Source of the DNA: Cymodocea nodosa
Taxonomy: Eukaryota > Streptophyta > Magnoliopsida > Alismatales > Cymodoceaceae
Reading direction: 5' to 3'
Assembly: GCA_036874045.1 (NCBI GenBank)
Contig: CM072343.1
Span: 6,716,001-6,780,000, forward strand
DNA: 64,000 nucleotides
Under the pieces are notes generated by a model. The model saw nothing but the letters and a program-made list of their open reading frames with translations. It was not told the DNA's origin and made no database searches. The position numbers and the translations under genes were made by a program. Shown in pieces: positions 1,367-58,939 of the stretch. The number at the start of each line of letters is the position of its first letter. Within the stretch, counting starts at the first letter, position 1.

Positions 1367-1386
1367 ATTTGTAGGGTGACAAGGAG

Positions 1387-14046: not shown

Positions 14047-14079
14047 TTTATAAGATTGCAAGGACAAGAAAGCTCAAAC

Positions 14080-23700: not shown

Positions 23701-23759
23701 AACCATTGGCAAAGATTGTCCTAGAAGAGACGTTAGACATCTGATTAGATATGGCTAGG

Positions 23760-33066: not shown

Positions 33067-33073
33067 AGTTTTC

Positions 33074-33092
33074 TAGTGTCGTTACCGGGGAT
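33074..33092 (+). other. Gypsy B primer-binding site (tRNA-Asp type)
   Basis: TAGTGTCGTTACCGGGGAT matches 15 of 19 bases of the Athila PBS TGGCGCCGTTGCCGGGGAT. The mismatches are all transitions. Confidence 0.82.
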
Positions 33093-33172
33093 TGAGAAGC
33101 TAAGCAATTGTGAGTACTATTTTGTTTTAATAGCAGGAGGAGTGTTGTGTGTTTTACTCTATAATTGAGAAT

Positions 33173-38217: not shown

Positions 38218-41186
38218 CTTCCCCCATACTTAAATTTTGCTAGTCCCTTAGCAAACTAAGATCTAACTAGTTGGTCTCTCTAAAGTGCTAGAATTAATTC
38301 TTCCTTTTGTTCTTCTTTAGAATAATAAATTAGATTACTATATAGATATTCTGTATTTTTTAGTAATCTGTTTTAACTTTGTTTTCTCCTCTACAACCTG
38401 CAAATATATTTAAAACATATGTAAATTACATACAAAATATATCAGCATCATATAGGTGTTAATTATATTATCATTTTTCTTCTTTTCAAATATCTGTTAT
38501 CTTGAATTTCCTAATATGATTTCCAGAACAAATTTCAACTACATATGAATCAAAACACAATCCAATTCAATATGATTAAAACAAGTAGAATAATGAATTG
38601 TATCTCAAATAAACAACTTCAAAAGTCTATTCTAGATTCATACTTCAGCAATCTTAGATAACAGAAAATATACTCGATTCAAAAGATATCTGTATTTCAC
38701 TAAACACTTTTATCTTTTCAGAACAGTATATGCATATTTGTACTTTAAAAGTTAATTTGAAAAGCTTGAATCATAAGAGAGCTTTCTAGTGTACCCATGT
38801 ATCGAGCTTTTAGTCAACAATTCCTCTTGTAGGAGGTATCAATTTCATTAACAATTCTGTTGACGGGGTTAGGTACTGCTTGCATTGGCAATCCTCTAGT
38901 AGGTCTAACTTCCATTGATTCTAGCAGTGCCATGAAGCTATACATTTCTGATCAAGGTATTATTGGTATAGGCTTAATTCTCATATGATAAGCTAAATAT
39001 TATGCACTTTTTCATTCTAAACACTTCCCCCATACTTAAATTTTGCTAGTCCCTTAGCAAACTAAGATCTAACTAGTTGGTTTCTCTAAAGTGCTAGAAT
39101 TAATTCTTCCTTTTGTTCTTCTACAGAATAATAAATTAGATTACTATATAGATATTCTGTATTTTTCAGTAATCTGTTTTAACTTTGTTTTCTCCTCTAC
39201 AACCTGCAAATATATTTAAAACATATGTAAATTACATACAAAATATATTAGCATCATATAGGTATTAATTATATTACCATTTTTCTTCTTTTCAAATATC
39301 TGTTATCCTGAATTTCCCAATATGTTTTCCAGAATAAATTTCAACTACAAATGATTCAAAACACAATCCAATTCAATATGATTAAAACAAGTAGAATAAT
39401 GAATTGTATCTCAAATAAACAACTTCAAAAGTCTATTCTAGATTCATACTTCAGTAATCTTAGATAATAGTGCAATTATAACATAATGGCTTAATTCTCA
39501 TATGATAAGCTAAATATTATATAATTAACCATCATTTAACCATTAATATTATACACTTTTTCATTCTAAACACTTCTCCCATACTTAAATTTTGCTAGTC
39601 CCTTAGCAAACTAAGATCTAACTAGTTGGTCTTTTTACAGTTACTAGAATTACTTCTTCAAAATACATAAATTAGATTACTATATAGATATTTTGTATTT
39701 TCAGCAATCTATTTTAACATTGTTTTCTCCTCTTCAACTTGCAAATATATTTAAAACATATGTAAATTACATACAAAATATATTAGCATCACATAGGTAG
39801 TAATTATATTATCATTTTTTCTTCTTTTTAAATATCTGTTATCCTGAATTTTTCAATATGATTTCTAGAATAAATTTCAACTACTTATGAATCAAAACAC
39901 AATCAAACTCAATATGATTAAAGTAAGAAGAATAATGAATTGTTTCCCAGATAAACAACTTCAAAAGTCTAATCTAAATTCATACTTTAGCAATCTTAGA
40001 TAACAGAAAATATACTCGATTCAAAAGATATCTGTATTTCACAAAACACTTTTATCTTTTCAAAACAGTATATGCATATTTGTACTTTAAAAGTTAATTT
40101 GAAAAGCTTGAATCATACAAGAACTTTCTAGTGTACCCATATATTGAGCTTTTAGTCAACAATCTCAGATCTGATCAGGATCTTAGGTTGCCAGATTTAA
40201 AGAGTCCTTTTTGAGGTCAACAATCCTTACATACCTATCTGCTCAAGTACAAAAGGCTCGTGATCAAACAAGTTAATAAACTCTCAAAGTTTTTCTCTTT
40301 TTTTTCCCTCTTTTTTCTTTTCAACATAGTATATATATGTATTTTATTAATACAGATGCAATAAAACACAAATCTCATATAGTCCTACTTCTATTATTTA
40401 CTGAAAATATGAATCCATATCAATAAGCTCATACTTTTTTTGTAGTTTAATAAGATCTATATATAAATCATTCTACAAGTTTAATCACTCAAATTAAATG
40501 TATCCTTGATCATATGTATTTCATTTAATCCAAAAATCAACATTTCAACTCTTTTAGGATTTCAGATAATTTAATGAGTTTCAATTAAGCATTTTCTTTT
40601 TAAAATCATGAAACTGTTAAACTCATAAAATTCAGCAAAAACATAAGATACTATATCTAGATTTGTATGAATAGTAAAATTTTGTAGCATCTTATATAAG
40701 ATTATAAATATAACATTAAAGTAGTTACAGTTCTTAAAAATTTGATAGTCTCAATTATTAGATAGTTACAGAAAATTCATAAAAATTTTCAATTTCCACA
40801 GAACTTTTGCAGTACCATTCTAATTCCTCTAATTAACAAAATTACTTGGTTGTTAATCAAATTACCTCCCCCCATACCTACATTTTGCATTGTCCTCAAT
40901 GTAAAAGATTTTACAGTAAATTCAATAAATGTTAGTAGGCAGGAATATTGTTTCGTTGACTTAGCACCTAACTCAACGAACTTAATTCGTTGAGTTAATG
41001 AATAACTCCATGAACTTAGTTTACTCTACATTCAGGATAAGTAATCAATTACATACCTTGTTCTTTTGTATCTCCTTCAATATCTTCCAACTTTTGATTT
41101 TGAAAAACTTTTCATTCACAAATAAAAGCAAAATATATAACAAAATAATAAAACATAAATTGTTAATTCAATGTCCTTTGTGGAAC
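38218..41186 (-). other. Gypsy C 3' noncoding region, rearranged, with three PPT/LTR-start junctions
   Basis: There is no gene. The PPT (minus GTATGGGGGAAG) is at 38218-38229. The block that follows it is repeated at 39024 and, with a slightly changed PPT (CTTCTCCCATAC), at 39573. Each repeat is preceded by a short stub of LTR start (about 38950-39023 and 39466-39572). A misplaced piece of the gag 3' end lies at 38826-38924 (it matches 58945-59045). A second purine tract (minus GTATGGGGGGAGG) is at 40865-40877. Dyads of the GTTGAGTTA type are at 40951-41015. D inserted at 41187. Confidence 0.8.
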
Positions 41187-43414
41187 TGCTTGGATTTTCC
41201 CAACACGACACCATAAAAACTTGGATTTGTTACTTCTATTTTTACTTAGTTAATTTATCTTTATGCCTATTTTTTTTTAGAAGTAAACAAACAACCTTTA
41301 ATACAATTTAGATATTAATTCCAATTTGTACTTTAACTGCAAGTGCACAGTGTCAATTGTATCAGTGTGCAAGTACAGGTCGATCCCACAGGGAATTGTT
41401 AAAGAGTTGAGAACTGTCCGTTTGTTAACAATCAAATTTATATATTCAATAAGCTCTCCGTTGAATTACAATTAACTCAACAAACAAAGTTCGTTAAGTT
41501 ATGGCTAACTCAACAGACTAACCTCGTGGACTTAAGTTAAGTCCACGAGCCTGTCTTTTCTTTTTAATACTACTATTTATAGAGGAATTCGGCCAACCAT
41601 TGGGCGATTCCACAGATTGAAAATAACATCAATTAAGCTCTTTAATGTTAGTAAACATTGGATTTATCATTAAGCATACTAACATTCAGATAATTCAAAC
41701 AGTAACTATTAAAATTTTTAAGTCTTTTGAACAAACCAATTTTAGTAAACTGTAAAACTAAAACTAACATAAAACAATCGCAACACTGATAAAGATAACA
41801 TTAATCACGATACAACACAAACAATACAACACTCAAATACAACATATAAACATAGATAAATTGTTTTTGGTATTTTTGTTATAATATGAACATGGAAATG
41901 GGCGAAAGGTGAAATGTAAAGTAATCTCAGTCGATAGTAAATACTTCTGTCACTACATACAACAAAATTACATCACTGAAAATTAAACCACTTACAATTC
42001 TGTCTCCTCTCCCTATAGAATCACGAGTCCAGAATTGCAAGATGATCTCCTCTTCAGCATACAGGAATCAACTTGAAGCCAAGGCTAGAAGCTTTACGAT
42101 CTCTTGAAATATGAGTCGGCGCTTGGTGAAAATGGCTTCCCTTCCTGCGACGCGATTGCTCCTCATAGTGGTTGTTAGGCACCGTGTTTGGCTCGGAATC
42201 AACCCAGCATCAAGAAAGTATTCTCACAAACCTCCGATGGTTGGTGATTGTGGTGGTTATGGTGGTGGTAATGATGGTTGGTGTGGTACTTCAGAGAATT
42301 GCCGACACTATCTATAGAAAGCTCGATGCTCCTCCTCTGTACACACTAGCCGCCCATCGATCACACATAGTTTACTTCTTTTTGTTCTTTTCTTTTATAT
42401 TTCTTCAGTGGTAACTGCTTCTGCTTGAATAGTTGGTTGGATTTCCTTCATTCATATCAACGACGATGATTTCTTCCCCCTTCGACAAGTGAATTCCTGC
42501 GTGATACGTGCGATCGTGGTTTTTTTCTTCCAACTGTCTGTTCCTGCAACCGCTACAGTGGCATATTAGAAAATAAATAGTCCGTGGAGTTACAGATAAC
42601 TCAACGGACTTTCTTCATTGATTTAACTATAAAACACGTGCATAAATTTAACTATTCGATGCTTAGATGCATTTCGGATACTTATAAACTTAACTATCCG
42701 ATGCTCAGATACATTTCGGATAGTTACAAATAACTCACTAATATATAACTTAAGTAAATCTACCAGATCTCGACACATGTCAGCAGTAGTTTAATAATAA
42801 AAGAAACATTTCAGAGAGTTACAAGTCTAACTATCCAATGCTCAGATGCATTTCAGATAGTTATAGATAACTCACCGAAAATCCACTTAAGTCACTTTCC
42901 CAGAACATGACACATGTCCACAGCTATTTTATAAATAAAAAGAGATTTCGGAGAGTTACACATATAACTGTCCGATGCCTAGCTGTAATTTCGGATAGTT
43001 ATAGATAACTCACCGAAAGTTCACTTAAGTCATGCATTATGGTTTCGACATGTGTACTTCAGAAAATAATAAAATATTCTTTTAAAACATAACTGCTCGA
43101 TAGTTTAAACATAACTATCCAATACATGTTCGGTATGTTAAACATAACTGTCCGAAATATGTTTGGTATGTTAAACATAACTGTCCGAAATATCAGAAAA
43201 TTCAGATACTTAAGAATTTCGCAGCCTCCAACTTATTGATAGTTCAAAAATGTACTAAATTGACATTAATTCCCCCAATTTAAGCAGATTCTTTAATTAA
43301 AGCATATAACAGTGCAATTATTGCATAATGGCTTAATTCTCATATGATAAGCTAAATATTATGCAATTAACCATCATTTAACCGTTAATAATATGCACTT
43401 TTTCATTCTAAACA
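41187..43414 (-). repeat. Gypsy D 3' LTR (2228 bp)
   Basis: The plus strand begins TGCTTGGATTTTCC and ends CATTCTAAACA, next to the PPT. It carries all family modules: GTTGAGTTA dyads (41456-41550), TCGATCCCACAGGGA, a TATA-like AATATAAAAGAAAAG on the minus strand near 42390, and the GGATAGTTA/TAACTATCC array (42640-43200). Confidence 0.92.
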
Positions 43415-43426
43415 CTTCCCCCATAC
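43415..43426 (-). other. Gypsy D polypurine tract
   Basis: The minus strand reads GTATGGGGGAAG immediately before the LTR start TGTTTAG. It fixes the orientation and the LTR boundary. Confidence 0.9.
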
Positions 43427-45179
43427 CTAAATTTTGCTAGTCTCTTAGCAAACTAAGATCTAATTAATTGGTCTTTCTAAAAGTGCTAGAATTAATTCTT
43501 CCTCTTTCTTTTTTCTTCTGTTCAGCATAAGAATATATATTCTGTATGTTTCAGTAATCAACTTGCAAATATACTTAGAATATATGTAAATTACATACAA
43601 AGTATATCACCATCACATAGGTGTTAATTATATTATCATTTGTTCTTCTTTTCGTCATCTATCATCCTGAATTTTCCAATAAGATTTCTAGAAGAAATTT
43701 CAACAACATACGAATCAAAGTACAATCCAATTCAATATGATTAAGACAAGTAGAATAAAGAATTGTATTTCCATTAAAACAACTTCAAAAGTCAATTCCA
43801 TATTCATATTTCAACAATTCTAGATAACAGAAAATATACTCGATTCATAAGATATCTATATTTCACAAAACACTTGTATCTTTTCAAAACAGTATATGTT
43901 TTTTTTTTTTTTTTGTACTTTAAAAGTTAATTTGACAAGCTTGAATCATACAAGAGCTTTCTAATGTACCCATGTAACGAGCTTTCAGTCAACAATCCTA
44001 GATTTGATCAAGATCTTAGGTTGCTAGATTTCAAGAGTCCTTTTTTAGGTCAACAATCCTTACATACCTATCTACTCAAGTATAAAAGGCTCGTGATCAA
44101 ACAAGTCAATAAACTCTCAAATTTTTTTTTTCAATCAAAATACACACAAAACAAATTATTAATCACATACTGTATATGTACGTATTTCATTAATACAGAT
44201 GCAGTAATCACCAATCTAATATAGTCCTGCTTCTATCATTTACTAAAAATATGAATCCATAACAATAAGCTCATACTTTTTTCTGTAGTTTAATAAGATA
44301 TACACATAAATCATTCTACAAGTTCAATCAGTCAAATTAAATGTATCTTTAATCATATGTGTTTCATTTAATCTAGAATTCACATCTCAGCTCCTTCAGG
44401 ACTTGAGATAATTTACTAATTTTTCATTAAGCATTCTGATTTCATTTTAAAATCATGAAACTGTTAAACTCATGAAATTCAGAAAAAACATAAGATACTA
44501 TATCCAGATTTGCATAAATAGTAAATTCTATAGCATCTTATATAACCTTCTAAATATAACATTCAAGCAATTACAGTTTATATAAATTTTATAGTCTCAA
44601 TTATCGGATAGTTACAACAAGTTCATAAAAATTTTCAATTTTCACAAAACTTTGCAGTACCATTTTAATTCCTTTAATTAACAAACTTACATGGCTGTTA
44701 CTTTAATTACCTCCCCCCATACCTACATTTTGCATTGTCCTCAATGTAAAAGATTTGACAATAAATACAGTAATTGCAGTAGGCATGAATACAATTTCTT
44801 TGATTTAAAATTCAAGATAAGTAATTAGTTACATACCTTGTTTTATTTGTATCTTCTTCTACATATTCCGATTTTTGATTCTGAAAAACTTTTCATTCAC
44901 AGATAAAAGTAGAATATAAAACAAAATAACATTTAACAAATATTAATAAACTAGTGCCTTGTGTGAAACCCAGGCTCCTATGCCCTTTGGTGGCTCACAA
45001 GCAAGCTAGTTGGTTTCCCAAAATAGATACCAACAAACTGGATTGATATTTTGTTTTTGTTTTTGTTTTTTTTCTTTTATAAAATACAAATGAAAACTAA
45101 ATTTTTTTCTTTTTTCTATTTTTTTTATTTTAAAAATAAATGCAGAATACACACAACATTAAACACAGAAAATCACAGC
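43427..45179 (-). other. Gypsy D 3' noncoding region
   Basis: No coding sequence is recognised. It is AT-rich, with a poly-T run near 43899-43914 and a second purine tract (minus GTATGGGGGGAGG) at 44710-44723 followed by a context resembling that of the main PPT. Near 44970-45030 lies GGCTCCTATGCCC...CACAAGCAAGCTAGTTGG, also found in C at 57433-57475. Confidence 0.7.
44710..44723 (-). other. Secondary purine tract of gypsy D
   Basis: On the minus strand this reads GTATGGGGGGAGG, nearly the same as the main PPT and conserved in C at 40865-40877. It may be an internal second plus-strand primer site; that is inference. Confidence 0.5.
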
Positions 45180-46313
45180 TTAAGAACAAGATTGAAAAGT
45201 AGGAACAAATGGAATAAATGTATCAGTCCAAGCAAACTTTTTAGGCATAGTTCTTGCTATTAACTCTATTTTAATGCAGTTCTTATTCCTTCTTAATTTG
45301 TAAACATGTAATATATTATAAATTCCAAATACAAGTGTATTATCATTAATGATATGAAATGCAGAAAGGGATCCTTTTTGGTTCCAGGGTAATGTAGCAG
45401 TTTCTATTTCTACATCTATTTCAATATATTCTTCTTCCCACTTCCATTCATTTATGTCTTCCATAATCCATATTCGAAATTTCATCAATTCATCCCACCA
45501 TCTTATCAGACATAAAGTAAGATCATCATCTTCATTATACCACATTCCTATTTGAATTTTATTAAATTCTGTAGATGGTGGTTTAGCTATTTCTCTCGGT
45601 ATAGGTAAAATTTCTATATATTGATTATAACTGTCTATGCTCACTATGTATAAATCAGATCCAAATGCTATTGATATATCTGTGACTAGATATACATATC
45701 CATCAAGTATGACATGTGTTTGGTTAATTAATGATTTCTGTCCTAGATATATCATAATATTTTCATTCCAAGATCTATTCAGAAAATTATACACACTTAA
45801 GCGTAAACCTTCACCCCAATTTCCTGTAGGTCTCCAATAATATAATTTTTCAGGAATTGTAGAATTTTTATCAGAAAATATTAAAGCCGATCCACAATTT
45901 ATAGTTGGTACTTCATATCTATTAGGTCTTCCTATATACCATTCATCTCTTGTTATAGGATTTCTTATCAAAATATCAGGTAATAAACTTGCATACCTTG
46001 GTCTCGTCCTGTATATGATTAATCCTTCATCTATCCTCATAATATGATCTATTCCTTCTAATGTATTGGGTGGAATTCTAGTAGTTTCTTCCATAGCCAG
46101 ATATTCATGGTTAATTGAACTACGATTAATTGACCTCCATCTGAATCCTTCTCTAATCTTAGTCATTTTTGTAGCTTGTAGTCCTTGAAAATATTTTTCT
46201 TCAATACAATTTTTAATTTCCTTTGATACACAACACAGCCTGCACAGATCTTCAGTTGATAAATTACTCAGTACCTCCCTTAGTGCATCCAACGGTAATT
46301 GCATCAATTCCAT
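45180..46313 (-). CDS. F-box protein carried by gypsy D (377 aa, intact)
   Basis: The N-terminus (residues about 5-45: LPLDALREVLSNLSTEDLCR, then LCCVSKEIKNCIEEKYF) is a clear F-box, the Skp1-binding motif of SCF ubiquitin-ligase adaptors. Residues 118-125 read NPITRDEW, and the Trp-rich acidic region near residue 300 (EWKWEEEYIEID) resembles plant F-box-associated domains that recognise substrates. It has no stop or frameshift, although I count 13 Trp and 9 Gln codons that one transition would turn into stops. It lies 190 bp after the gag stop and before the PPT. Gypsy C carries a homologue in the same position, so it moves with the element. The substrate is unknown. Whether it is expressed cannot be seen; it could be captured and simply young. 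Confidence 0.85.
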   Translation of the reverse strand: MELMQLPLDALREVLSNLSTEDLCRLCCVSKEIKNCIEEKYFQGLQATKMTKIREGFRWRSINRSSINHEYLAMEETTRIPPNTLEGIDHIMRIDEGLIIYRTRPRYASLLPDILIRNPITRDEWYIGRPNRYEVPTINCGSALIFSDKNSTIPEKLYYWRPTGNWGEGLRLSVYNFLNRSWNENIMIYLGQKSLINQTHVILDGYVYLVTDISIAFGSDLYIVSIDSYNQYIEILPIPREIAKPPSTEFNKIQIGMWYNEDDDLTLCLIRWWDELMKFRIWIMEDINEWKWEEEYIEIDVEIETATLPWNQKGSLSAFHIINDNTLVFGIYNILHVYKLRRNKNCIKIELIARTMPKKFAWTDTFIPFVPTFQSCS

Positions 46314-46379
46314 TTGTCGATTCTGTATAACACAAACGAAAATTTAGCAAAGACAAAAATTAACATAACTACTGCACAC

Positions 46380-46443
46380 CCTCGTGGAGTTAAGGCATAA
46401 CTCAACGGACTAAGTTCGTTGAGTTAAGGACTAACTCAATGAT
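46380..46443. repeat. Dyad repeats between gag and F-box (gypsy D)
   Basis: CTCGTGGAGTTAAGGCATAAC is followed by TCAACGG, then TCGTTGAGTTA and TAACTCAA: two inverted pairs of the GTTGAGTTA/TAACTCAAC type in the intergenic gap. The same feature is at 58792-58850 in C. Confidence 0.8.
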
Positions 46444-46502
46444 ACTATTAACTATAAATAAAAGCATATATATATACAGATAGTTGCTTCAGATATGTTG
46501 TT

Positions 46503-47846
46503 TCATTCAGCTACCCTCCTAGAAGAGGTATCAATTTCATTAACCGTTCTATTGATAGGATTAGGTATTGCTTGTATTGGCAATCCTCTAGTAGGTCTAA
46601 CTTCCATTGGTTCCTTTTGTCTAAGTGGTATATTTCTATTATGATTTTGAATTGCAGCATTTCCAAATACAAAATCTAGACGATTATTTAATTGTTGGAT
46701 TATCTTTTCTAATTTCTCTATTCTAGAACCTTGTTCCAGTAATACTTCATAACTTATATTCTTCTCATTTACATTTTCTCCTCCTTGGAAATTGTTGTTT
46801 CTCTAAGATAAATTCGGGTGATTTCTCCAACTAGGATTATAAGAATTTCCCAAGTTATCTCTTTGGTTTTTAGCATAAATAATATCTAAATCATTTATGT
46901 TTGCATTCATTTCTGCTAGCTTTTGATTTAATGATAACTCTTCTATTTTCTTTGTTAATTCAGTTAATTTCACCTCAAGCATAGTACTTGAATCTATTTC
47001 ATGCATTCCTCTTGGCAAAATTTTTTTATCTGCATTAGCTTCAGTTGAGTTTTCCCACTATGCAGTTCTTTTTGCAAAGTTTTCTAAATATGCCCATGCT
47101 TCTTCACTACATAATTTTAAAAATCCATTTTGACAAGTAGATTCTAATAAAGATTTCGTTGAAACATCTATGCCTTCATAAATTATACCTATTAGTTGTG
47201 CTTTACTCATTGTATGATGTGGACATTGAGTCAGTAAATCTTTAAATCTTTCAAAATATTTCTAGAATGATTCACCCTATTTTTGGCTACACATTAATAT
47301 TTCTTTTTTCTTTTTAATCGTTTGATGTGTTGGATAATATTTTTCCAGAAAAATAGAGCAAAATTCAATCCATGTAGAAATTGAATCAGGCGACAAAGTA
47401 TATAACCATCTCTTAGCCGTGTCTTTCAAAGAAAAAGGGATATATCTAAGTTTAATAGCATCTATACTCATGTTCAGCATTTTCATCATTTGACAAACTT
47501 CATTAAATTCTCTAAGGAAATAATAGGCATCCTCTCTTTCTAATCTATGAAAATGTGGCAATTGACTAATATAATTAGATTTCAGTTCAAACCTATCTCC
47601 CTCAAAGTTTGGCAATCGAATACATGAAGGTTCATCAACTAATTCAGGATATAGAATTTCTCCTAATGGTTTTTCTACTAGAGCAGCCATCTCTACGTTC
47701 TCTTTTAAAGAAAGGTTAGCTACACCCCAAAGAATTTCGTTAAAGTTCAGTTCAGAAAATTTTTCAGTACTCCTCTGTGATGAAAATTCCTAGGTAGGTG
47801 TTCTAACTAATCGTTTAGTGCTTAGAGAACGAGTCCATGTGCTCAT
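46503..47846 (-). pseudogene. Gypsy D gag capsid ORF, located downstream of pol
   Basis: The start MSTWTRSLSTKRLV is at 47846. The Athila/gypsy capsid region includes IRLPNFEGDRFELKSNYI, REDAYYFLREFNEVCQMM and DTAKRWLYTLSPDSISTW, then FCSIFLEKYYPTHQ. Later come LTKKIEELSLNQKLAEMN and the Athila-type tail YNPSWRNHPNLS. There is no zinc knuckle; that motif is in the 5' ORF of pol. The frame is continuous over 448 codons, with about five nonsense codons, all TAG as I read them; at SF-stop-KYF gypsy C has Trp. The normal role is particle assembly. Its position between ORF-E and the F-box gene is unusual. Confidence 0.88.
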
Positions 47847-48479
47847 AAATAAATAGCAGAAGATTAATTACATACTAGTCTAAAGCTTTCCATTCAATAA
47901 ATATTTGTTGTCGGATGAAGTTGAATCAACTGCTTCTCCTTCCAGTTCCTCCAACGCGTTCTCCTTTCTTTTAAAAGTGCTGGTAACTCGTAAATAACAT
48001 TCTGTTATATATATATAATGCACATCCATAAAGTGAATAAATCTCGTTGCAAGAACGTGTCTTGCAATGTGCATCGTGGTTCCTATTTTTATGGCTACAT
48101 GTACCACTACTAATTTCAAATTTTGGTAACCGCAAAACTGACGAAGTTTCGTTTGTGGTTAAAAGAATAACCATTCTACTTAATCCAGGAACTAACCTCA
48201 TTGAGTTACAGATAACTCAATGAAACAAAGTCGGTTACTGTTGCTAACTCCACGGACTAACTTCGTTGAGTTATAGATAACTCAACAAAGTGACCTTATA
48301 TTATATTACTAACCTCGTGGAGTTATGTTTAACTCAACGAACTTACTTCGTTGAGTTAACACTTAGCAACCTCTAAGTTTACTCTCGTAAGTTCCTCTCT
48401 AATTTTTTTTCTTTTTCATTCTGCTAACTAAAATAAAGTTAAATCTATGTCATTAATGCATCATTCTAATTAAAATTTG
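47847..48479 (-). other. Gypsy D spacer between ORF-E and gag, with dyads
   Basis: No gene is present. Between 48196 and 48370 there are at least three inverted pairs of the type TTGAGTTA-CAGA-TAACTCAA and CGTTGAGTTATAGATAACTC, separated by CTCCACGGACTAAC. The corresponding dyads in C are at 60655-60810. Confidence 0.78.
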
Positions 48480-50111
48480 TTTAAATCTAAACAATCTTTG
48501 ATTTCCTATTCTGTCCACTCAACTACAGTTGTGTCTTCCAAAATTTTTAGTCCTTCATTCTTTAATCCAAAAATGTTGTGGAGAAGCTTTGGTGTTATCT
48601 ATACATCAGCTTCCTCCACGTTGGAAATTAATCCTCCTCCTTCTCTTAAATTTGCATAGAAATAGGGCACTAAATTCTCATAAACTGCATGCCCTCTTTC
48701 TTGAGAAATGAACTTTAGTAGACCTTGGAATTCAACTAAATCTTTGATTTCTTGCATTCTATCCCAATTTACTGGTCTACTGTAAATAACATCGTAACCC
48801 CTAATCTCTTGATATTTGATATAAGCTTCCTGACTCCAAAAATGTACTTCATTTAGAACTCTTGTTTCAGTCGGGTCAGGAATGTGACTTTGTTGTTCCA
48901 AAGGGGTTTGTTCTTGATCTTCCTCTACTATAGGCTGCATTTGAACATTCTCTACAGATTCCTGAATTTTTGCTTCTGCTTCTATCTATGGTGGTGAGCT
49001 GGCAGAACTCTCCACTCTGTCTTGAATTCTTTCCATAAATTGCTTAAGAGTTTCTTGCTCTTCAATGGAATCTGTAAAGTTATTTTTGTCCAAATGGCTT
49101 CGTTCAGCTTCTTCTTCATTTTCTGCTCTTTCTTCTTCCTCCTGACTACCAATCTGCTTTGTCACTGTTCTTTCTGATTCTATAACAGATTGGGATGGAG
49201 TCATGGGCAATTTTGCCCTAATTTCTGTTCTTTCTTCTTGTACAGGTTGTAGACTAATTTCAGCCTATTTTTCTTCTTGTCTTTGCTCCTACTACTGCAG
49301 CTCCTGCTCCTCCTCAAAATCGGATAGCAGGTTTATAAATATTGGCTCCACAGGCCTTGTTGAAATTGGTACTTCAGATTTAATTTCTTCTCTATATTCA
49401 GGCACTATCTCTTTTCCTTTCCTTTTTCTAATTAATTGTGCTTGTTCTTCCTCTTCTTCTTTTGAGATTAAATCTATAAAAGTAGGCTCTGCAGGCCTTC
49501 GAGCCACAGGTACTAGCTCTTCCTATTTAATTCTCTCTATAATTACTGGTCTCGAAGGACTAGCCTCAGCTTCTCTTGCAACACTTGATTTAGCTGCTGC
49601 CTGATGTTGTTCAACCTTAATTCTTTCTCTTCTTCATTAGTTCTTGGCCAAGCAAATGCTACTTGTGGCAATGGCTCTATTGGCTAAACTGGAGGTCTTG
49701 ACTGCTGTTCCTCAAGAACAGGTCTTTCAGCAGTCGGTTCTTCCTATTCTCCTGTTGTTGTTGTTGCCATATTTCCCAACTTCCACGACCAGCAATGCGC
49801 CTTTTAAACCACAATTTGGCCTTGCGCTGAATTAGCTCTAGGGCTACTTCGTTGTTTGGTCGGATTTTTCTTTCTTTACTAACTGCAATTTCTGTTGCTA
49901 CTCTGATTCATGTCTCCATTATATGAGGTATTTGTATACCACAATCTACTGATATTTTTCTTAATCTAAAAAGTTTAGATTCTACCTTCTGTAGCTCTTT
50001 TTCTCTTGTCGTATTCTGAATCTTTTGCCGCGTGTGCCATTCTTCTGATTCCTTCAGAAACTGTGCTGTGTCAACTACATCTTCCTAGAACTCAGGTGTC
50101 ATCTTCCTCAT
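48480..50111 (-). pseudogene. Gypsy D ORF-E (Glu-rich ORF), truncated and frameshifted
   Basis: The start MRKMTPEF is at 50111 with TAG at the next codon, shared with C. The N-terminal part is basic and helical (KESEEWHTRQKIQNT, EVALELIQRKAKLWFKRR). The middle is Glu-rich with repeats of the form RPxEPxFIxLxS. The C-terminal domain (YIKYQEIRGYDVIYSR, VPYFYANLREGGG) resembles the putative plant transposon protein domain found in many plant repeats. Relative to C there is an internal deletion plus frame change near 49630-49750, and about 0.8 kb including the C-terminus is lost at 48480. It occupies the place of the env-like ORF of Athila elements; its function is not known. Confidence 0.78.
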
Positions 50112-50690
50112 CGTGGAGTTACACAACAGCACGAAATCGCTCTAATTTCTACTATTCTAGATTCTAAATGATTTGCTTGATAATGCCCCCAAAACCCTAG
50201 GTTTTAGTTTAAATAAGCCCTAAGTTTAGGCAGGTAATCGGGTCATTTCCCGAAGCAATTATTGCTCTCTCATCTGCGGTCTTAGCTATAGTACTCCGTT
50301 GAGTTACAGTTAACTCAACGGAATAAGCTCGTTGACTAACTCAAGACTCAACGGAGTAAGCTCGTTGAGTTAAGCGTAACTCAACGGACTTACCGTACAA
50401 GTAGATATAATAATAAAAATATTTAAGATAATAGTTTTTCTGTTTTTTTACCGGTTTAATCGATACTATGTTCCGGTCAGACCTAATTTTTTTCCAGTTG
50501 AACCGATACTATGTTTCGGTAAAACCAACATTTTTTTCTGAAAATTAATATACATATTTTTTTATGTTCTGGTCATACCGATGGATCCAGTTGGTTGAAC
50601 TTCAATGATTTTTATATTATATATATATATATATATATTTTTAATGTTTTTTATATATATATATATATAAACATAAAAATTGATTTCTTA
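50112..50690 (-). other. Gypsy D spacer between integrase and ORF-E: dyads and TA microsatellite
   Basis: No gene is present. A near-perfect hairpin at 50296-50321 has 11-bp arms (CCGTTGAGTTA / TAACTCAACGG) and a 4-base loop. A second at 50363-50386 has 10-bp arms. GATACTATGTTCCGGT and GATACTATGTTTCGGT form a short direct repeat near 50460-50520. (TA)n runs are at about 50617-50637 and 50652-50669. Confidence 0.8.
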
Positions 50691-51930
50691 CTAAGTAAAG
50701 CTCGAGTAGTCCTCTACTCTGACTTCTTCTATAATTCCAAAGGAGCTTTTTGGTGTTTTCAGAATAGGTCTAAGTCTTTGTCCATTTACTTTAAATATAT
50801 TCTGATTTTTAGGATTTTCAATTTCAATAGCTCCATAAGGATAAATATTTCGAACTAGGTATGGTCTTGCCCATCTAGATCTTAATTTTCCTAGATGGTT
50901 ATGAAGTCTAGCCATATAAAGATATACTTCTTGTCCTATTTCAAAGCTTTTTGGAATAATTTTCCTATCATGCTAGAATTTCATTTTCTCTCTTTCTCTT
51001 ACAGTCTTTGAATAAGCTTCATTTCTAAATTCTTCTAATTCAAGTAATTGCATTTTTCTATTTTCAACAGCTTGATTTAAATTAATGTTCAGAGTTTTTA
51101 ATGCCCAATAAGCTTTATGTTCTATTTCAGCTGGTAAATGACAACTTTTTCCACATACTAGCCTAAAAGGTGACATACATAAGCTCATTTTATAAGCAGT
51201 TCTATAAGCTCAAAGTGCATCTATCAATCTATTAGCCCAATCTGTTGTAGTAGGATTTACTACTTTTTCTAAGATTAATTTAATTTGTTTGTTTGCACTT
51301 TCTACTTGTCCACTTGTTTGCGGATGATATGATGTTACAATTTTGTGGTTTACTCCATATTTCTTTATTAAGGTTTTAAAACTTCTATTACAGAAATGAG
51401 TTCCTCTATCACTGATAATAGCTTTAGGTATTCCAAATCTAGCAAATATATTGGTTCTTATAAATTGTATTACCACTTTATTGTCATTAGTTTTTGTGGG
51501 AATAGCTTCTATCCATTTAGATACATAATCCACCCCCAACAATATGTAACTAAATTGATTAGACATAGGAAATGGACCCATAAAATCTATTCCCCACACA
51601 TCAAATATTTCAACCTCAACAATAGGATTAAGAGGCATCATATTCATCTTTGATATTCTTCCTATTTGTTGACATCTTAAACAACTTAAGCAATATTTAT
51701 GAGCATCTTTGAATAGTGTTGGCCAATAAAATCCACATTGCAAAATTTTTACAGTAGTTTTCCCTGAGCCAAAATGCCCTCCACAAGCTTGGTCATGACA
51801 GAAAGACAATATGTTTGGATATTCAGTTTCTGGAACACACCTTAAAACCAAATCAAGACATTTCTTAAATAAGTATGGGTCTTCCCAATAGTAATATTTT
51901 ACTCTCGAGAAAAATAGTTTCTTATCCTGT
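50691..51930 (-). pseudogene. Gypsy D integrase
   Basis: The HHCC zinc domain shows HDQACGGHFGSGKT and YCLSCLRCQ. The catalytic core has Asp in GIDFMGPFP, Asp in IISDRGTHF and Glu in GQVESANKQIK, so DDE is intact. The C-terminal region (SFEIGQEVYLYMARLHN, RSRWARPYLV) ends at 50691. No chromodomain is seen, consistent with Athila. A frameshift separates it from RNase H near 51930. TGA near 51210 and TAG near 50973 interrupt it. The enzyme would insert the cDNA into the genome. Confidence 0.9.
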
Positions 51931-53580
51931 CTATTCCAATCCGTAACCAGTAACTAAATAATTAACTATGTCTACATAACAAGGTATTGTGTTGATGGTC
52001 ATTAATTGTTCATCAGAAAAATTATCCTTAATTTCAATATTTGAATTTTCTATTTGTAATCTTGATAAATGATCTGCTACTACATTCTCACAACCTTTTC
52101 TATCTTTAATTTCTAGATCAAATTCTTGTAATAATAATATCCATCGGATCAATCTAGGTTTAGTCTCTTTTTTCTTTATTAGATGTTTTAGAGCTGAATG
52201 ATCTGTGTATACTATTACTTTAGCTCCAATCAGATATAATCTAAAATTTTCTAAAGCAAACACAACAGCTAATAATTCTTTTTCAGTAGTTGTCTAATTA
52301 ACTTGAGCATCATTTAAGGTTTTGCTTGCATAATGAATCACTCTAGGAGATTTTTCTATCTTTTGTCCTAACATTGCTCCTACAGTAAAATCAAAAGCAT
52401 TGCACATTAATTCAAATGGATGGTTCCAATCAGGTGCTTGAATTATAGGAGTTGAAACTAAGCTAGTCTTAAGTCTGAAAAATGCTTCCTTGCAATTTTT
52501 ATCAAAGTTAAATGGAACGTCTTTTAATAGATTAGTTAAGGGTCTAGCAATCTTGCTAAAGTCTTTAATAAATTTTCGATAAAAACCAACATATCCTAAA
52601 AATGATCTAATATCTTTTACTGATTTAGGTTTTGGTAGATTAGAAATTACTTCTATTTTAGTTTTATCTACTTCCAACCATTTCTTAGAAACAACATGCC
52701 TTAAGACTATTCCTTGTTTAACCTTGAAGTGACATTTTTCCCAATTTAAAACCAAATTTTTTTCCACATAACATTTTGATATTAAGTCTAAATTTTTTAA
52801 ACAGACTTCATATGAGTTTCCATATACAGTAAAGTCATCCATAAATATTTCTAAGAAATCTTTAGTCATTCCAGTAAATATGCCCTGCATACACCTTTGA
52901 AAGGTAGCTAGTGCATTGCATAATCCGAATGGCATTCTCTTAAAAGCATAAGTTCCATTAGGATAGGTGAAAGTTGTTTTCTCTTGATCCTCTAATGCTA
53001 CTGGAATTTGATTATAACCTGAATACCCATCTAGGAAACAAAAATATTCTTGCCCTGCTAATCTTTCCAGCATTTGATCTATAAAAGGTAAGGGAAAATG
53101 ATCTTTCCTAGTCACAGCATTTAGCTTTCTATAGTCTATACATACTCTCCAGCCCAATTGAATTCTAGCAGGTATCAAGTCTTGACTTTCATTCCTAATA
53201 ACTGTTAATCCTGATTTCTTGGGAACTACATGGATTGGACTAACCCACGAGCTATCAGAAATCGGATAAATTACGTCATTATCTAACCATTTCATTATTT
53301 CCTTCCTGACTACTTTAATGTTTGGATTTAATATCCTCTTAGGAATTCTAATAGGTTTAGCATTCTCTTCTAAATATATGTGGTGATAGCATAAAGTTGA
53401 ACTTAACCCTTTTATATCAGTCATAGTCCATCCTATTGCTTCTTTATAACTTTTTACTACATCTTTTAATTTAGCTATTTGATTCTCTTTTAAATCTGAA
53501 GCAATAATGATTGGACAGGTTCGTTTATCTTCCAGAAATATATAGGTTAATTCAAGAGGTAAATGTTTTAATTCTAAATG
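51931..53580 (-). pseudogene. Gypsy D reverse transcriptase and RNase H
   Basis: Uninterrupted RT runs from 53424 to 52294 (376 codons). Motifs are SSWVSPIHVVPKKSG, WRVCIDYRKLNAVTRKDHFP, FLDGYSGYNQIPV and YAFKRMPFGLCNA; the catalytic FMDD is at 52834-52845. Then come RSFLGYVGFYRKFIKDFSKI and the RNase H start. TAG near 52291 precedes RNase H ([39 protein letters not shown]). All catalytic boxes are kept. TAA at 53581-53583 lies upstream and is shared with gypsy B. Confidence 0.92.
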
Positions 53581-54327
53581 TTACCCATCAGAAGCTAGAG
53601 CTCCTAATTGAACATCATCATTTTCTAAATTAATTTCTTCTAGATCTCCTTCTATATTTATGCTTTCACTTTCCTCTAAAGTTTCAAAATTGATTTGCCT
53701 ATTTAATTCTTCTTGAATCACATCATCTAACATATCTCCTTCATCCTCTAAAAAGTCTATGGTATGTAAGGACATTTCTAACTCCTCAAACCTTTCTGGT
53801 TTGAAAATATTTAATTGAGTATCCTCATTACCATATGCTAACTTCATTACTCCAGTTTTACAATTTATAACAGCCCCTAATGTTGCTAAAAATGGCCTTC
53901 CCAAAATTAAAGATGTATCACTATTTTTATGTTTAATTTGTTGGGAATCCAAAATTACAATATCAATAGGATATATAAAATTTTTGATTTTAATTAAAAC
54001 ATCCTCTATTTTTCTTCTAGGGTATCTTATACTTCTATCAGCTAATTGAATAACCGTACTAGTAGGAGTTAAGTCTTCTAATCCTAAGGATGCAAATATA
54101 TCACTTGGCATAATATTTATACCTGCACCTAAGTCTATTAAGGTTCTTTCTAGAATGATATTTCCTATGGTGCATGATATAACAAGGATTCCAGAATCAG
54201 ATAACTTTTTAGGAATTTGTGGCAGAAATAGGGAACTACTTTGCTCAGCTAAAAAGACCTTTCTAAGAACTTTTTGCTCTCTTTTCCTAGTACACCAATC
54301 CTTCAGAAATTTAGCACAAGGTGGCAT
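53581..54327 (-). pseudogene. Gypsy D protease region
   Basis: An uninterrupted 248-codon stretch. Athila-type block MPPCAKFLKDWCTRKRE, then the aspartic protease with LIDLGAGINIMPSDIF (catalytic Asp near 54130) and LILGRPFLATLGAVINCKTG. It ends with an acidic Glu-rich tail. It is bounded upstream by TAG (DLL-stop-KM) and downstream by TAA (DG-stop-HL); both stops are also present at the same places in gypsy B. Confidence 0.9.
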
Positions 54328-55323
54328 TTTCTACAACAGATCTAACAAAGGAATGTTAACTTGTACTTTTTCAAAAATTTCTCTAATTTTTTCTTATTTT
54401 TCAGGTATTGTTTGTTGTAATATTTCAGGATAGGGTGCTAAAGATTGTGATTTAAAAGATTCTTTTTCTTTCATTTGATTTGTTTGATCATTTTTAGCTT
54501 CATTAGCAGATTCAGATTGTTCTTCAGTAATTTCTAGATTTTCAGCTATTACATTTTCATTATCATTTTGATTTTTACTCTTATCCACCTTCATATTATT
54601 TTCATTTTGAGTTCTTGGTGGTATATCAGTTCCAGATCTTAATGTTACATATACATCTTCCAGATTTTCGTTACTCTTATGATGTTTTTGTATATCATTT
54701 TCGTGATTATGATTTTCAATTGTTTTTAGTTTTAAAGTGCATTCTTTAAATTCTCTTGCATTAATATTTTCTATTTGCTGTATATTTTGCAAATTATGCA
54801 GATTTATAACATTATAATTTTCATTGTCCTGTTACATAACTCGTATTTTCATTGTATATTCGTCCAATGCTTTTAGTTTTCTTTCTAGATCATCTAATCT
54901 CATTGCATTCAATTTTTGATCAATTTTCATTATTGTTTTTTCAGTTTCGTAAATTATATCCTTTTTAGGTTTTGAATATGCTTCCTTATAATTTAATTGG
55001 TTGACTTCTTGTTGCTAACACATAAAGTATTCTAGTTTGTCTAGGTTTTGCTCTATACTATGCTCTAGTGTGTCATACCTATCCCAAACTTCAGTGTCTC
55101 TCAACATATTACACATTCTATACTGACCATCAGTTGGGTAAACTATAGGATTCTCATACTCGGCTCTATTATACTGAGGATAATTCATTTGTTGTTCATG
55201 GGATCTAACCATCTGCAAACGTCTTAGTTTCAAACAGTCAGAAATGTCATGTCCTTCAGAATTGCAGAATTCACATATGCTAACTACAGGTTTTAGAAAT
55301 CTTTGAGCATAAGCATATGCCAT
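54328..55323 (-). pseudogene. Gypsy D zinc-knuckle ORF (5' part of pol)
   Basis: This is the first ORF after the PBS, with start MAYAYAQRFLKPVVS at 55323; an upstream in-frame ATG at 55347 is possible. An intact CCHC knuckle is near 55236-55280 (CEFCNSEGHDISDC), a nucleocapsid-like motif normally found at the end of gag. A Gln/Asn/Glu-rich linker follows. Stops are TAG (YMC-stop-QQ, CAG in B), TAA (VM-stop-Q; B has CAA there and TAG at the next codon), TAA (EK-stop-EK, shared with B) and TAG (DLL-stop-KM, shared with B). The frame stays the same throughout. Confidence 0.88.
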
Positions 55324-55390
55324 ATTCTCAATTACAAAAGAAAACACACAACTCTGGCTATTAAAACGAAACAGCTCTAATAGTTGCTTA

Positions 55391-55420
55391 TATTAATTCA
55401 ATTCAATTCAATTCAATTCC
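55391..55420. repeat. AATTC microsatellite next to PBS
   Basis: About five tandem copies of ATTCA/AATTC lie just downstream of the PBS on the element's strand. Confidence 0.75.
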
Positions 55421-55434
55421 CTAGCAACGGCGCC
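55419..55434 (-). other. Gypsy D primer-binding site (tRNA-Asp)
   Basis: The minus strand reads GGCGCCGTTGCTAGGG, one change from the tRNA-Asp PBS of Athila elements, eight bases from the LTR end. Confidence 0.9.
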
Positions 55435-55442
55435 GTAAAACT

Positions 55443-57425
55443 TGTTTGGATTTTCCTAGCACGACACCAAAAAAACTTGGATTTGTTACTTCTGTGTTTA
55501 CTTAGTTAATTTATCTTTATGCCTATTTTTTTTTAGAAGTAAACAAACAACCTTTAATACAATTTAGATATTAATTCTAATTTGTACTTTATCTGCAAGT
55601 GCATAGTGTCTATTGTATCAGTGTGCAAGTACAAGTTGATCCCATAGGAAATTGCTTAAGAGTTGAGAACTGTCCATTTGTTAACAATCAAATTTATATA
55701 TTCAATAAGCTCTCCGTTGAATTATAGTTAACTCAAAGGACAAAGTTCGTTGAGTTATGGCTAACTCAACGGACTAACCTTGTGGACTTAAGTTAACTCC
55801 ACGAGCCTGTCTTTTCTTTTTAATACTGCTATTTACAAAGGAATTTGGCCAACCATTGGGCGATTCCACAGATTGTAAATAACATCAATTATGCTCTTTA
55901 ATGTTAGTAAACATTGGATTTATCATTAAGCATACTAACATTCAGATAATTCAAACAGTAACCATTAAAATTTTTAAGTCTTTTGAATGAACTAATATCA
56001 GTAAACTGTAAAACTAAAACTAAAATAAAACAATCACAACACTGATAAAGATAACATTAATCACGATACAACACAAACAATACAACACTCAAATACAACA
56101 TACAAACATAGATAAATTGTTTTTGGTATTTTTGTTTTAATATGAACATGGAAATGGGCGAAAGGTGAAATGTAAAGTAATCTCAATTGAGAGTAAATAC
56201 TTCCGTCACTACATACGACATGAAGAAAATATTCTCACAGACCTCCGATGGTTGGTGATTGTGGTGGTTATGGTGGTGGTAATGATGGTTGGTGTGGTAC
56301 TTCAGAGAATTGCCGACACTATCTGTAAAAAGCTCGGTGCTCCTCCTCTGTACACACTGGCTGCCCATCGATCACACATACTTTATTTCTTTTTGTTCTT
56401 TTCTTTTATATTTCTTCAGTGGTAACTGTTTCTGTTTGAATGGTCGGTTGGATTTCCTTCATTCATATCAATGATGATGATTTCTTCTCCCTTCGACGAG
56501 TGAATTCCTACGTGATACGTGCGATCGTGGTTTTTTTCTTCCAACTATCTGTTCCTGCAACCGCTACAATGGTATATTAGAAAATAAATAGTCCATGGAG
56601 TTACAGATAACTCAACGGACTTTCTTCATTGATTTAACTATAAAACACGTGTATAAATTTAACTATCCGATGCTTAGATGCATTTCAGATACTTATAAAC
56701 TTAACTATCTAATGCTCAAATGCATTTCGGATAGTTACAAATAACTCACCGATATATAACTTAAATAAATCTACCAGATCTCGACACGTGTCAGCAGCAG
56801 TTTAATAATAAAAAAAATATTTCAGAGAGTTACAAGTCTAACTATCCGATGCTCAGATGCATTTCGGATAGTTATAGATAACTCACCGAAAATCCACTTA
56901 AGTCACTTTCCCAGAACATGACACGTGTTCACAGCTATTTTATAAATAAAAAGAGATTTCAGAGAGTTACACATATAACTGTCCAATGCCTAGTTGCAAT
57001 TTCGGATAGTTATAGATAACTCACCAAAAGTTCACTTAAGTCATGCATTATGGTTTTGACACGTGTACTTCAGAAAATAATAAAATATTCTTTTAAAACA
57101 TAACTATTCGATAGTTTAAACATAACTATCCGATACATGTTCGGTATGTTAAACATAATTGTCCGAAATATGTTTGGTATGATAAACATAACTGTCCGAA
57201 ATATCAGAAAATTTGGAAACTTAAGAATTTCACAGCTTGCAACTTACCAACAGTTCAGAAATATACTAAATTGACATTAATTCCCCTAATTTAAGCAGAT
57301 TCTTTAATTAAAGCATATAACAGTGCAATTATAACATAATGGCCTAATTCTCATATGATAAGCTAAATATTATGCAATTAGTCATCATTTAACCGTTAAT
57401 AATATGCACTTTTTCATTCTAAACA
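55443..57425 (-). repeat. Gypsy D 5' LTR (1983 bp, internal deletion)
   Basis: It has the same termini as the 3' LTR. At about 56218 CATACGACATGAAGAAAATATTC joins sequences that are about 245 bp apart in the 3' LTR (41953 to about 42200), so a segment just upstream of the TATA-proximal region was lost, apparently after insertion. Confidence 0.9.
56401..56414 (-). promoter_or_regulatory. TATA-like box in gypsy D 5' LTR
   Basis: The minus strand reads GAAATATAAAAGAA, conserved in all family LTRs seen (near 42390, 31210, 36510 and, in plus orientation, 29622). It is a plausible core promoter for the element transcript. Confidence 0.5.
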
Positions 57426-57581
57426 GGAACCCAAGCTCCTATGCCTTTGGTGGCTCACAAGCACGCTAGTTGGTTTCCTAGAATAGATACCAACAAACTG
57501 GATTTAAAATTTTTCTTTTCCTTTTCTTTTTCTAAAAATAGATGTAGAATGCACACAACATTAAAAGCATAGAATCACAAT

Positions 57582-58721
57582 TTAAGAACATGATTGAAAA
57601 GTAGTAACAAACAGAATAAACGTGTCAGTCCAAGCAAACTTTTTAGGCGTAATTCTTCTTCCTATTAATTCTATTTTAATGTAGTTCATTTTCCTTTTTA
57701 ACTTGTAAACTTGTAGTATGTTATCAATACTAAATATGAGTGTATTTCCATTAATGAATTGAAATGTAGAAAGGGATCCTCTTTTATTCCAAGATAATGT
57801 AGCTGTTTCTATTTCTACATCTATTTCGATATATTCCTCTTCCCACTTCCATTCATTTAGGTCTTTTATAATCCATATTTGAAATTTCCTCAATTCATCC
57901 CACCATCTAATCAGACATAAAGTGGGATCATCATATTCATTATACCACATTCCTAATTGAGTTTTATCATATTCTGAAGATGGTGGGTTAGCTATATCAC
58001 TAGGTATAAGCAATATTTCTATAAAGTCATCATCATAAATATCTATGCTTACTATGTATAATTCAAATCTAAATGCAATTGATATATCTGTGACTAAATA
58101 TATACATCCATCAAGTATGACATGTATGTTGTTAATTAATGCTTTCTGTCTTAGATATATCATAGTATTTTCAGTCTAAGATCTATTCAGAAAATTATAC
58201 ACACTTAAGCATAAATCTTCATCCCAATTTCCAATTGGTCTCCAATAATACAATTTTTCAGGAATGGTCAAATTTTTATCAGAAAATGTTAAAGCTGACC
58301 CAATATTTTCAGTTGGCACTTCAAATTTATTTGGCCTTCCTATATTCCATTCTTCTCTAGTGATAGGATTTCTAATCAAAATATCAGGTAACAGAATTGC
58401 ATATCTTGGTTTGGTTCTGTAAATAATTAATCCTTCGTCTATTCCCATAATATGATCTATTCCTTCTAATGTATTGGGTGGAATTCTAGCAGTTTCTTTC
58501 ATATTCAGATATTCATAGCTAATGGAACTACGATTAAATGACTTCCATAAAAATTCATCTCTAATCTTAGTTATTTATGCAGCTTGTAGTCTATGAAAAT
58601 ACTTTTCTCTAACATAGTCTTTAATTTCCTTCACTACACAACACAATCTACACAGATCTTTAGCTGACAGATTACTAAGTACTTCCCTTAGTGCATCTAG
58701 TGGTAATTTCATCAATTCCAT
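57582..58721 (-). pseudogene. F-box protein copy in gypsy C
   Basis: A homologue of the gypsy D F-box gene in the same element position, in one frame of 379 codons without frameshift. Start MELMKLPLDALREVLSNLS; NPITREEW and EWKWEEEYIEIDVEI are conserved. It has only two nonsense codons: TAA near the end of the F-box region (QAA-stop-ITK) and TAG where D has Trp (RS-stop-TEN). Neither is shared with D. Gypsy D is inserted about 155 bp beyond its stop. Confidence 0.85.
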
Positions 58722-58791
58722 CTATTGTGATTCTGTATAACATAAACAAAAATTAACAGAGACAAAATCAACATAGCTACCTTCTTACCCT

Positions 58792-58850
58792 CGTGGAGTT
58801 AGGTCATAACTCAACGGACTAAGTTCGTTGAGTTAAGTAATAACTTTACG
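58792..58850. repeat. Dyad repeats between gag and F-box (gypsy C)
   Basis: CTCGTGGAGTTAGGTCATAAC with TCAACGG, then TCGTTGAGTTAAGTAATAAC: the same arrangement as at 46380-46443. Confidence 0.78.
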
Positions 58851-58939
58851 ATACTACTAACTACAATTAAACTTACATTTTTTATTATTATATTTTTTTA
58901 CTTACTATATTATACACAGTTACTTAAGTTATACTACTT

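Follow-up and report, generated by a model that had tools for sequence, protein, structure and literature searches.

In the established view of retroelements, gag lies upstream of pol, and capsid and nucleocapsid (NC) form one protein, an arrangement that ties capsid assembly to RNA packaging and to the Gag:Pol ratio. In this work we describe element D of Cymodocea nodosa, a complete Athila-type Ty3/gypsy element in which capsid and nucleocapsid are found on different genes. It is located in a stretch of 64,000 nucleotides (NCBI GenBank assembly GCA_036874045.1, contig CM072343.1, positions 6,716,001 to 6,780,000 of the forward strand), which we refer to as the window and in whose numbering all positions are given.

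The closest described systems are the Athila, Calypso and Diaspora elements, which, like D, have a primer-binding site (PBS) of tRNA-Asp type lying a few bases beyond a sizeable long terminal repeat (LTR), a CX2CX4HX4C zinc knuckle, and the pol order protease, reverse transcriptase (RT), RNase H, integrase (PMC1142308). In Diaspora, as described in the same paper, the gag core, zinc finger, protease, RT and integrase are encoded in that order by a single open reading frame (ORF) of 1892 codons; D's family, unlike Diaspora, has a separate capsid gene after integrase and, in addition, an F-box gene. Part of the Athila lineage has an additional ORF of Transposase_32 or Athila ORF-1 type; a Transposase_32-like one is described for a sunflower Athila element (PMC11728184), and ORF-E of D is a weak candidate for its counterpart. 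Permuted domain orders are described for Gmr1-like Ty3/gypsy elements (PMC8220671, PMC3587641), but there integrase is placed upstream of RT, whereas D's family combines a normal pol with a split gag. A survey of plant elements gives the Ty3/gypsy order as GAG-PROT-RT-RH-INT and uses an additional RNase H (aRH) to mark Tat elements, unlike Athila (PMC6317226). According to section 6 of that survey, every element with an unexpected domain order was discarded as a likely misprediction, so such families may have been removed elsewhere too. No account of capsid following integrase was found in the open-licence literature searched, and the split-gag order appears to be a new variation on the Athila kind.

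Domain order and ends of element D

Element D occupies positions 41187-57425 on the minus strand, and its domains are arranged from 5' to 3' as zinc knuckle, protease, RT, RNase H, integrase, ORF-E, capsid and F-box, followed by the polypurine tract (PPT) and the 3' LTR. The first ORF starts at 55015-55323 with MAYAYAQRF and contains a CX2CX4HX4C zinc knuckle without a capsid; a Pfam scan of this knuckle ORF of D returned no match. A linker (54394-54831), in which we take VTLRSG and PYPE motifs to be present, leads into the protease (53581-54330; PF13650, weak, E value 0.0019, below the cut-off). The RT (52294-53580; PF00078, 2.8e-27), the RNase H (51931-52293; PF17917, 7.5e-19) and the integrase with its presumed C-terminal part (50697-51953) follow in the order normal for pol. 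The integrase, whose frame is broken in D, was assigned from the H2C2 and rve domains at 51953-51210 (PF17921, 2.6e-13, and PF00665, 2e-16), the remainder being read by eye. In the scanned pol ORFs of D only RT_RNaseH-type matches were obtained, and no aRH.

The 3' half begins with ORF-E (approximately 48480-50111), which is weakly Transposase_32-like: an ORF-E piece of another copy matched PF20167 with an E value of 0.0016, below the family cut-off, and a second ORF-E piece gave no match. The 3' gag gene (46503-47846) has an MSTWTRS start, a capsid and a post-knuckle segment but no CCHC knuckle. Retrotrans_gag (PF03732) was matched in D at 47789-47277 with an E value of 1.8e-7, and the frame is broken. 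The F-box gene (45180-46313; PF00646, 4.1e-10) is open in D. The initial annotation had placed capsid downstream of integrase, and these Pfam matches agree with it. Of the structural features of Ty3/gypsy elements, TG...CA LTRs, a target-site duplication (TSD), a PBS and a PPT are all present in D, whereas GAG does not precede PROT: capsid comes after integrase and the knuckle alone is 5'.

The ends of D had been described as complete, and each component was found. The 5' LTR (55443-57425) is 1983 bp long with TG...CA termini (TGTTTAG...AACA), and its 5' flank ends in the TSD. After a spacer of 7 bases (AGTTTTA) comes the PBS (55418-55435, CGGCGCCGTTGCTAGGGA), which matches at 15 of 18 positions the word that we take to represent the tRNA-Asp type. 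The PPT (43413-43425, GGTATGGGGGAAG) precedes the 3' LTR (41187-43412, 2226 bp), which is followed by the second copy of the TSD. The TSD, GTTCC in the minus-strand reading, is perfect over its 5 bases on both outer flanks. An alignment of the two LTRs over 1981 bases gives 94.0% identity, with 99 transitions, 19 transversions and one 245-base gap. D is damaged: several of its ORFs contain stops, and a stretch of approximately 750 bases that separates ORF-E from capsid in other copies is missing from it. The designation as Athila-type rests on the PBS, the capsid likeness, the absence of any second RNase H from the scanned pol ORFs and the weak Transposase_32 match.

The immediate flanks of D (41030-41148 and 57428-57531) are neighbouring stretches of the pre-PPT region of another member, element C. 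Since both flanks come from this one split region, D is a genuine insertion. It was inserted into C on the same strand, which makes C the older element, continuing on both sides. The part of C located 5' of the insertion (57428-63905, minus strand) contains ORF-E, capsid, F-box and the pre-PPT region in the order seen in D, and the part 3' of it (39464-41186, minus strand) reaches the start of an LTR. Element B (32242-35365, plus strand) comprises the end of an LTR, the knuckle ORF, linker, protease and the start of RT. B and C therefore carry the two halves of the order, as had been noted from the outset. D and C, relatives that share their 3' order, do not lie side by side, D being inserted in C.

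Recurrence of the order and division of gag

The genome (374.6 Mb, 28 contigs) was searched with capsid and knuckle probes, which gave similar totals of first-look candidates (3757 and 3656, respectively), the best 40 of each being scored. The family is abundant, with thousands of candidate copies. For the capsid, ranks 2-11 of the 40 scored were analyzed, namely ten copies on nine contigs, each with two stretches covering both sides; for the knuckle, the 30 best loci among the 3656 candidates were used, D included. Both samples represent the closest relatives of D, and B and C, which are 72-91% identical across the probes, broaden them somewhat.

Pol was found 5' of capsid on the same strand in six of the ten capsid copies, the left side being missing or rearranged in the other four, and capsid was located 5' of the knuckle in none of the ten. 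F-box follows capsid in nine copies, the pre-PPT region and LTR are present in all ten, and ORF-E precedes capsid in seven. Four copies (C3a, C7, C14 and C12) show the run from LTR through knuckle, pol, capsid and F-box to the 3' LTR, the 5' LTR being cut by the end of the stretch in C3a and C14, and ORF-E being absent from C12. The flanks of C7 read GGTTT and GGTCT, alike in 4 of 5 bases; the 3' LTR of C12 runs into other family sequence and no TSD could be read. Among the remaining copies, C4 has an LTR joined to protease without a knuckle and an LTR inserted ahead of ORF-E, the stretch read for C16 ends at the linker, in C5 an LTR adjoins the integrase end, and C3b has upstream pol on the opposite strand only. 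In C8 and C23 no family sequence was found farther upstream within the 10 kb read.

The knuckle loci gave the complementary picture. An LTR ends 46-141 bases 5' of the knuckle at 29 of the 30 loci, the exception (L042) having no LTR but a PBS. A PBS with at most 5 mismatches of 18 to the tRNA-Asp type is likewise present at 29 loci, being absent at L054, and the CCHC motif is readable at 23. No capsid lies between LTR and knuckle at any of the 30 loci, which, for these closest relatives of D, speaks against the possibility, raised in the initial annotation, of most members carrying gag between PBS and knuckle. L034 is the one locus with a capsid fragment; it lies outside the LTR and belongs to the capsid gene of another copy into which a family element has inserted, an arrangement that could be misread as the canonical order. 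The split order is a family trait, as had been proposed, and neither a misassembly nor damage to a single copy.

A search of a protein collection gave 12 relatives of the downstream capsid, the best seven of which are 47-55% identical. Because of these relatives and the PF03732 match, which reaches 1.4e-19 in a longer copy, the downstream capsid is, as judged by homology, a real gag. The predicted structure of the capsid part (mean predicted local distance difference test score, pLDDT, 69.8) lends weak support to this identity: a structure search returned 38 matches at an E value of 10 or better, all but approximately three of them capsids, the best at 1.2, and sequence matches in the PDB reached 0.079 at best. 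No relative of capsid or of RT was found in the viral contigs searched.

Comparison with the relatives indicates how gag is divided. In P0001 a single protein contains an MxxWxRD..RL start, capsid, a coiled region, an intact CCHC knuckle and NPYSSTYNPG, and in P0003 a single protein contains capsid, a CCHC-like segment without the first Cys, and then WRNQQNFLW. The 3' ORF of D's family begins like P0001 (MSTWTRSLSTKRLVRT), keeps capsid and coil, passes straight into NSYNPSWRNHPNLSW and stops after TVNEIDTSSRRVAE; a knuckle was looked for in this ORF and none was found. The knuckle and the VTLRSG linker are located on the 5' ORF. In Athila Gag-Pol, VTLRSG normally follows the post-knuckle coil. 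Capsid and CX2CX4HX4C knuckle, which characterize a single ORF in Athila, both exist in D's family, but on separate ORFs. Since the knuckle derives from inside the span kept by the 3' ORF, a single block move cannot yield this arrangement; gag is split and was not relocated as a unit. The initial annotation had suggested that the knuckle stayed while the capsid moved. The two positions, knuckle next to the PBS and capsid on the 3' side, stand; a simple move does not, given that the 3' ORF keeps both the Gag start and the post-knuckle segment. We infer that duplication of gag with reciprocal loss best accounts for the split: the ancestral gag would have been duplicated downstream of pol, the 5' copy losing its capsid and the 3' copy its knuckle.

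Expression and constraint of the downstream genes

A palindromic module is defined by the motif GTTGAGTTA with TAACTCAAC. If 1 mismatch is allowed, D contains 36 occurrences, whereas ten shuffled sequences average 5.7. Of the 19 copies between the LTRs of D, the three intergenic regions contain 18 and the ORFs one, although the ORFs make up 71% of the inter-LTR span (binomial P 2.5e-9, a value overstated owing to the clustering of copies). The modules lie at 50280-50400 before ORF-E (RNA fold z -6.5), at 48200-48360 before capsid and at 46380-46440 before F-box, all on the minus strand, and their counterparts in C14 match the LTR profile at 1.2e-12, 7.5e-10 and 9.7e-8, respectively. In all three intergenic regions of C14 the profile finds one and the same LTR segment (approximately 1826-1945 of 2212). 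The clusters are located 401-479 bases before the ATG of the knuckle ORF (inside the LTR), 195-274 bases before that of ORF-E (with one further copy at 10), 362-512 before that of capsid and 79-127 before that of F-box. Across the ten copies, module density is 9.7/kb before capsid, 4.1 in the F-box lead region, 2.8 in the ORF-E lead region and 4.6 in the LTR, and at most 0.43/kb in any ORF. In the LTR of D the module stands immediately upstream of TATATAAA, beside the TATA box, which is a promoter position. A second LTR palindrome, CGGATAGTTA/TAACTATCCG, has 20 copies in the two LTRs, one in the pre-PPT region and none in the three intergenic regions.

The leader of the capsid gene (47847-48025, minus strand) contains TATATATA approximately 170 bases before the ATG, a putative TATA stretch kept in eight of ten alignment rows, which stand for D, C and eight of the sampled copies (the short matches of C7 and C8 are excluded), and a donor-like GTATGTAATTAATC 29 bases before the ATG. 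The pre-capsid region was also considered as a decayed internal LTR with PBS, but this was rejected: the match to the LTR profile is confined to the palindromic segment, roughly 100 bases long, and a search of C14 that allowed up to 7 mismatches of 18 found no PBS-like site.

Sireviruses offer a parallel: palindromic repeats are described upstream of the TATA box of their LTR and upstream of the env-like gene (PMC2829016, sections 9 and 20), and the authors of that work take them to support an internal promoter, though none was identified. The likeness to D's family consists in palindromic motifs both in the LTR near the TATA box and before a downstream gene; unlike D, Sireviruses belong to the copia superfamily, their motif is another one (mostly with a CGG-CCG core), the downstream gene is env, and there is one internal site instead of three. 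The initial annotation had reasoned that the capsid would need its own means of expression. This is supported, and the LTR module before each downstream gene is a concrete candidate. Module placement favours separate transcripts for the downstream genes, perhaps internally promoted. Internal promoters are preferred because, as in Sireviruses, the LTR module beside the TATA box recurs before each downstream gene; taken alone, we regard this route as plausible but short of probable.

Assembly would pose a further problem. With a capsid devoid of a knuckle and a Pol that carries it, there is no Gag-Pol fusion through which Pol could be brought into particles. In foamy viruses (Spumaretrovirinae) gag is located 5' of pol; D's family differs in having the knuckle on Pol and capsid in the 3' position, and no relation is implied. 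The likeness proposed here is that foamy virus Gag has no Cys-His knuckles and that Pol is made apart and packaged via genomic RNA, whereas their Pol comes from a spliced RNA and their Gag has a GR-rich RNA-binding part of its own (PMC7828637). By analogy, D's family may follow a foamy-like assembly route. The 5' gene, consisting of PBS, zinc knuckle, protease, RT, RNase H and integrase, is an NC-Pol gene; the 3' gene encodes capsid independently of it, from a separate start of Gag type, and the F-box gene comes next. ORF-E, capsid and F-box would be expressed from separate transcripts, most likely starting near the module shared with the LTR promoter region, and an own transcript would allow capsid to be produced in excess. 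Through its knuckle, Pol would attach to genomic RNA, and both would enter the capsid together in the foamy-virus manner.

The F-box protein invites a comparison of another kind. Polerovirus P0 acts on host silencing. The F-box protein of the retroelement could by analogy act likewise; its frame is whole in C3a and D, and none of 2371 candidates was related to it at an E value of 0.001 or better.

Coding constraint was assessed from indels and codons, comparing D with C (capsid, F-box, ORF-E) or with B (5' genes). The capsid core aligns with that of C over 507 bases without interruption, while the rest of the capsid ORF has 2 gaps in 765 bases and F-box 3 in 1131; against B, there is none in 432 bases of the linker or in 750 of the protease, which is 90.4% identical. 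Non-coding stretches have 13 gaps in 598 bases and 22 in 1332, and a third has 2 in 118. Synonymous changes account for 14 of 43 differing codons in the capsid core, 23 of 59 in the rest of capsid and 49 of 138 in F-box. The two longer non-coding stretches, divided into codons for comparison, give 15 of 74 and 36 of 149, and the linker just 8 of 52. Among variants within the subfamily, second positions are depleted only in NC (p 0.019) and in ORF-E (p 0.026; both values uncorrected), and the shared changes are mostly transitions. Mainly through the scarcity of indels, the comparisons with C and B partly demonstrate coding constraint on capsid, and it is likely that the constraint acted during a period of activity and was followed by decay through transitions. 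Copy-to-copy identity was dropped as a sign of capsid constraint, the copies having been chosen by capsid likeness.

Taken together, we consider it somewhat probable that the family had a working split gag with separate expression of its parts, by internal promoters or by splicing. Several observations weigh against this. The knuckle ORF and the start of RT each have a gap against B (1 in 376 and 1 in 440 bases, respectively), and ORF-E has 3 in 385 against C. No third-position excess of variants was found within the subfamily in the 12 regions tested, and in the codon-position test against C or B only F-box stood out (p 0.015), with the 118-base non-coding control at 0.023. Capsid identity among copies (96.7%, 8 sequences) is inflated by the selection on capsid, and that of F-box (92.6%) barely exceeds the value for the pre-PPT control (92.0%). 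Frames were listed for 8 of the ten extra copies, in none of which pol or capsid is open throughout; likewise, the whole capsid ORF is in one frame at none of 8 capsid loci. As for the promoters, the unassigned DNA of the fetched stretches holds 2.1 module copies/kb, the TATA stretch TATATATA is no better conserved than its surroundings, and donor-like and acceptor-like sites are conserved as well. A more specific form of the split-gag reading is tentative only: a multi-promoter retrotransposon in which NC-Pol, ORF-E, capsid and F-box would each have their own copy of one palindromic promoter module, Gag would be divided between a knuckle on Pol and a capsid made in excess from its own message, and the F-box protein would disable a host silencing factor. 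If this is true, the element would be a multi-promoter retroelement organised like a small DNA virus and not as gag-pol.

The same split order could also be served by splicing, with capsid, ORF-E and F-box expressed from spliced forms of a single LTR transcript and the palindromes acting in RNA or being relics. This main rival, which overlaps with the working split gag since the latter covers either route, is about as doubtful as the multi-promoter form. It draws on a donor-like GT that stands 29 bases ahead of the capsid start codon in nine of the ten rows used for TATATATA, on an acceptor-like AG before the F-box ATG in ten of eleven rows (C8 excluded; in D the site reads ACAG, just before the ATG), on the good folding of the modules as RNA (z -3.1 to -6.5), and on the acceptors predicted for BAGY2 and Athila env that are cited in section 20 of PMC2829016; the promoter position of the LTR module upstream of TATATAAA and its recurrence before each downstream gene are harder to reconcile with it. 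Rather unlikely, in our opinion, is a helper-dependent family that would obtain capsid in trans from canonical Athila elements, the 3' gag being a captured passenger or an interfering factor. Scoring of 150 of 230 candidates gave at least 34 genomic sites similar, at an E value of 0.001 or better, to the coil and knuckle of the canonical relative P0001, the broken frames of the listed copies fit such dependence, and BARE-2 is described as an element living without gag. However, the capsid core is gap-free against C, and capsid has the same neighbours in D, C and the ten sampled copies, though these copies were found via the capsid itself.

Improbable, too, is a relocated capsid serving in another role, such as Arc-like carriage of RNA between cells or an env-like function, with a different protein enclosing the RNA. 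The top structure matches are dArc1 capsids, at insignificant E values (1.2 and 1.4), and capsid occupies the position of env-like genes; but it retains an ordinary gag core, and no second capsid-like domain was detected in the D ORFs scanned. An assembly chimera or nested-insertion artefact, which the initial annotation had named as a possible flaw and which the crowding of the window with nested elements might suggest, is extremely improbable: the same order recurs, PBS, PPT and LTRs included, on several contigs, other copies refute it, and the perfect 5-base TSD of D sits in a site known from relatives. A working split gag is the preferred reading. A family with approximately 3,700 first-look candidates has spread although its capsid and nucleocapsid are encoded by separate genes, which allows one to test how Pol and RNA find a capsid without a knuckle, and how the capsid:Pol ratio is set.

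Neighbouring elements in the window

Other parts of the window contain further nested or decayed elements. The PPT/LTR junction region of C (38109-40115) is tandemly repeated two to three times, with offsets of 806 and approximately 540 bases and 60-97% identity depending on the segment. Inside the apparent plus-strand 5' LTR of B (28796-33003) there is a minus-strand LTR of D's family (30013-32241), which is 88% identical to the 3' LTR of D. Additionally, decayed pieces of Ty1/copia-like pol, with ORFs read by eye, are present on the plus strand at 1375-4070, 7080-7904, 13576-16647 and 22744-25372.

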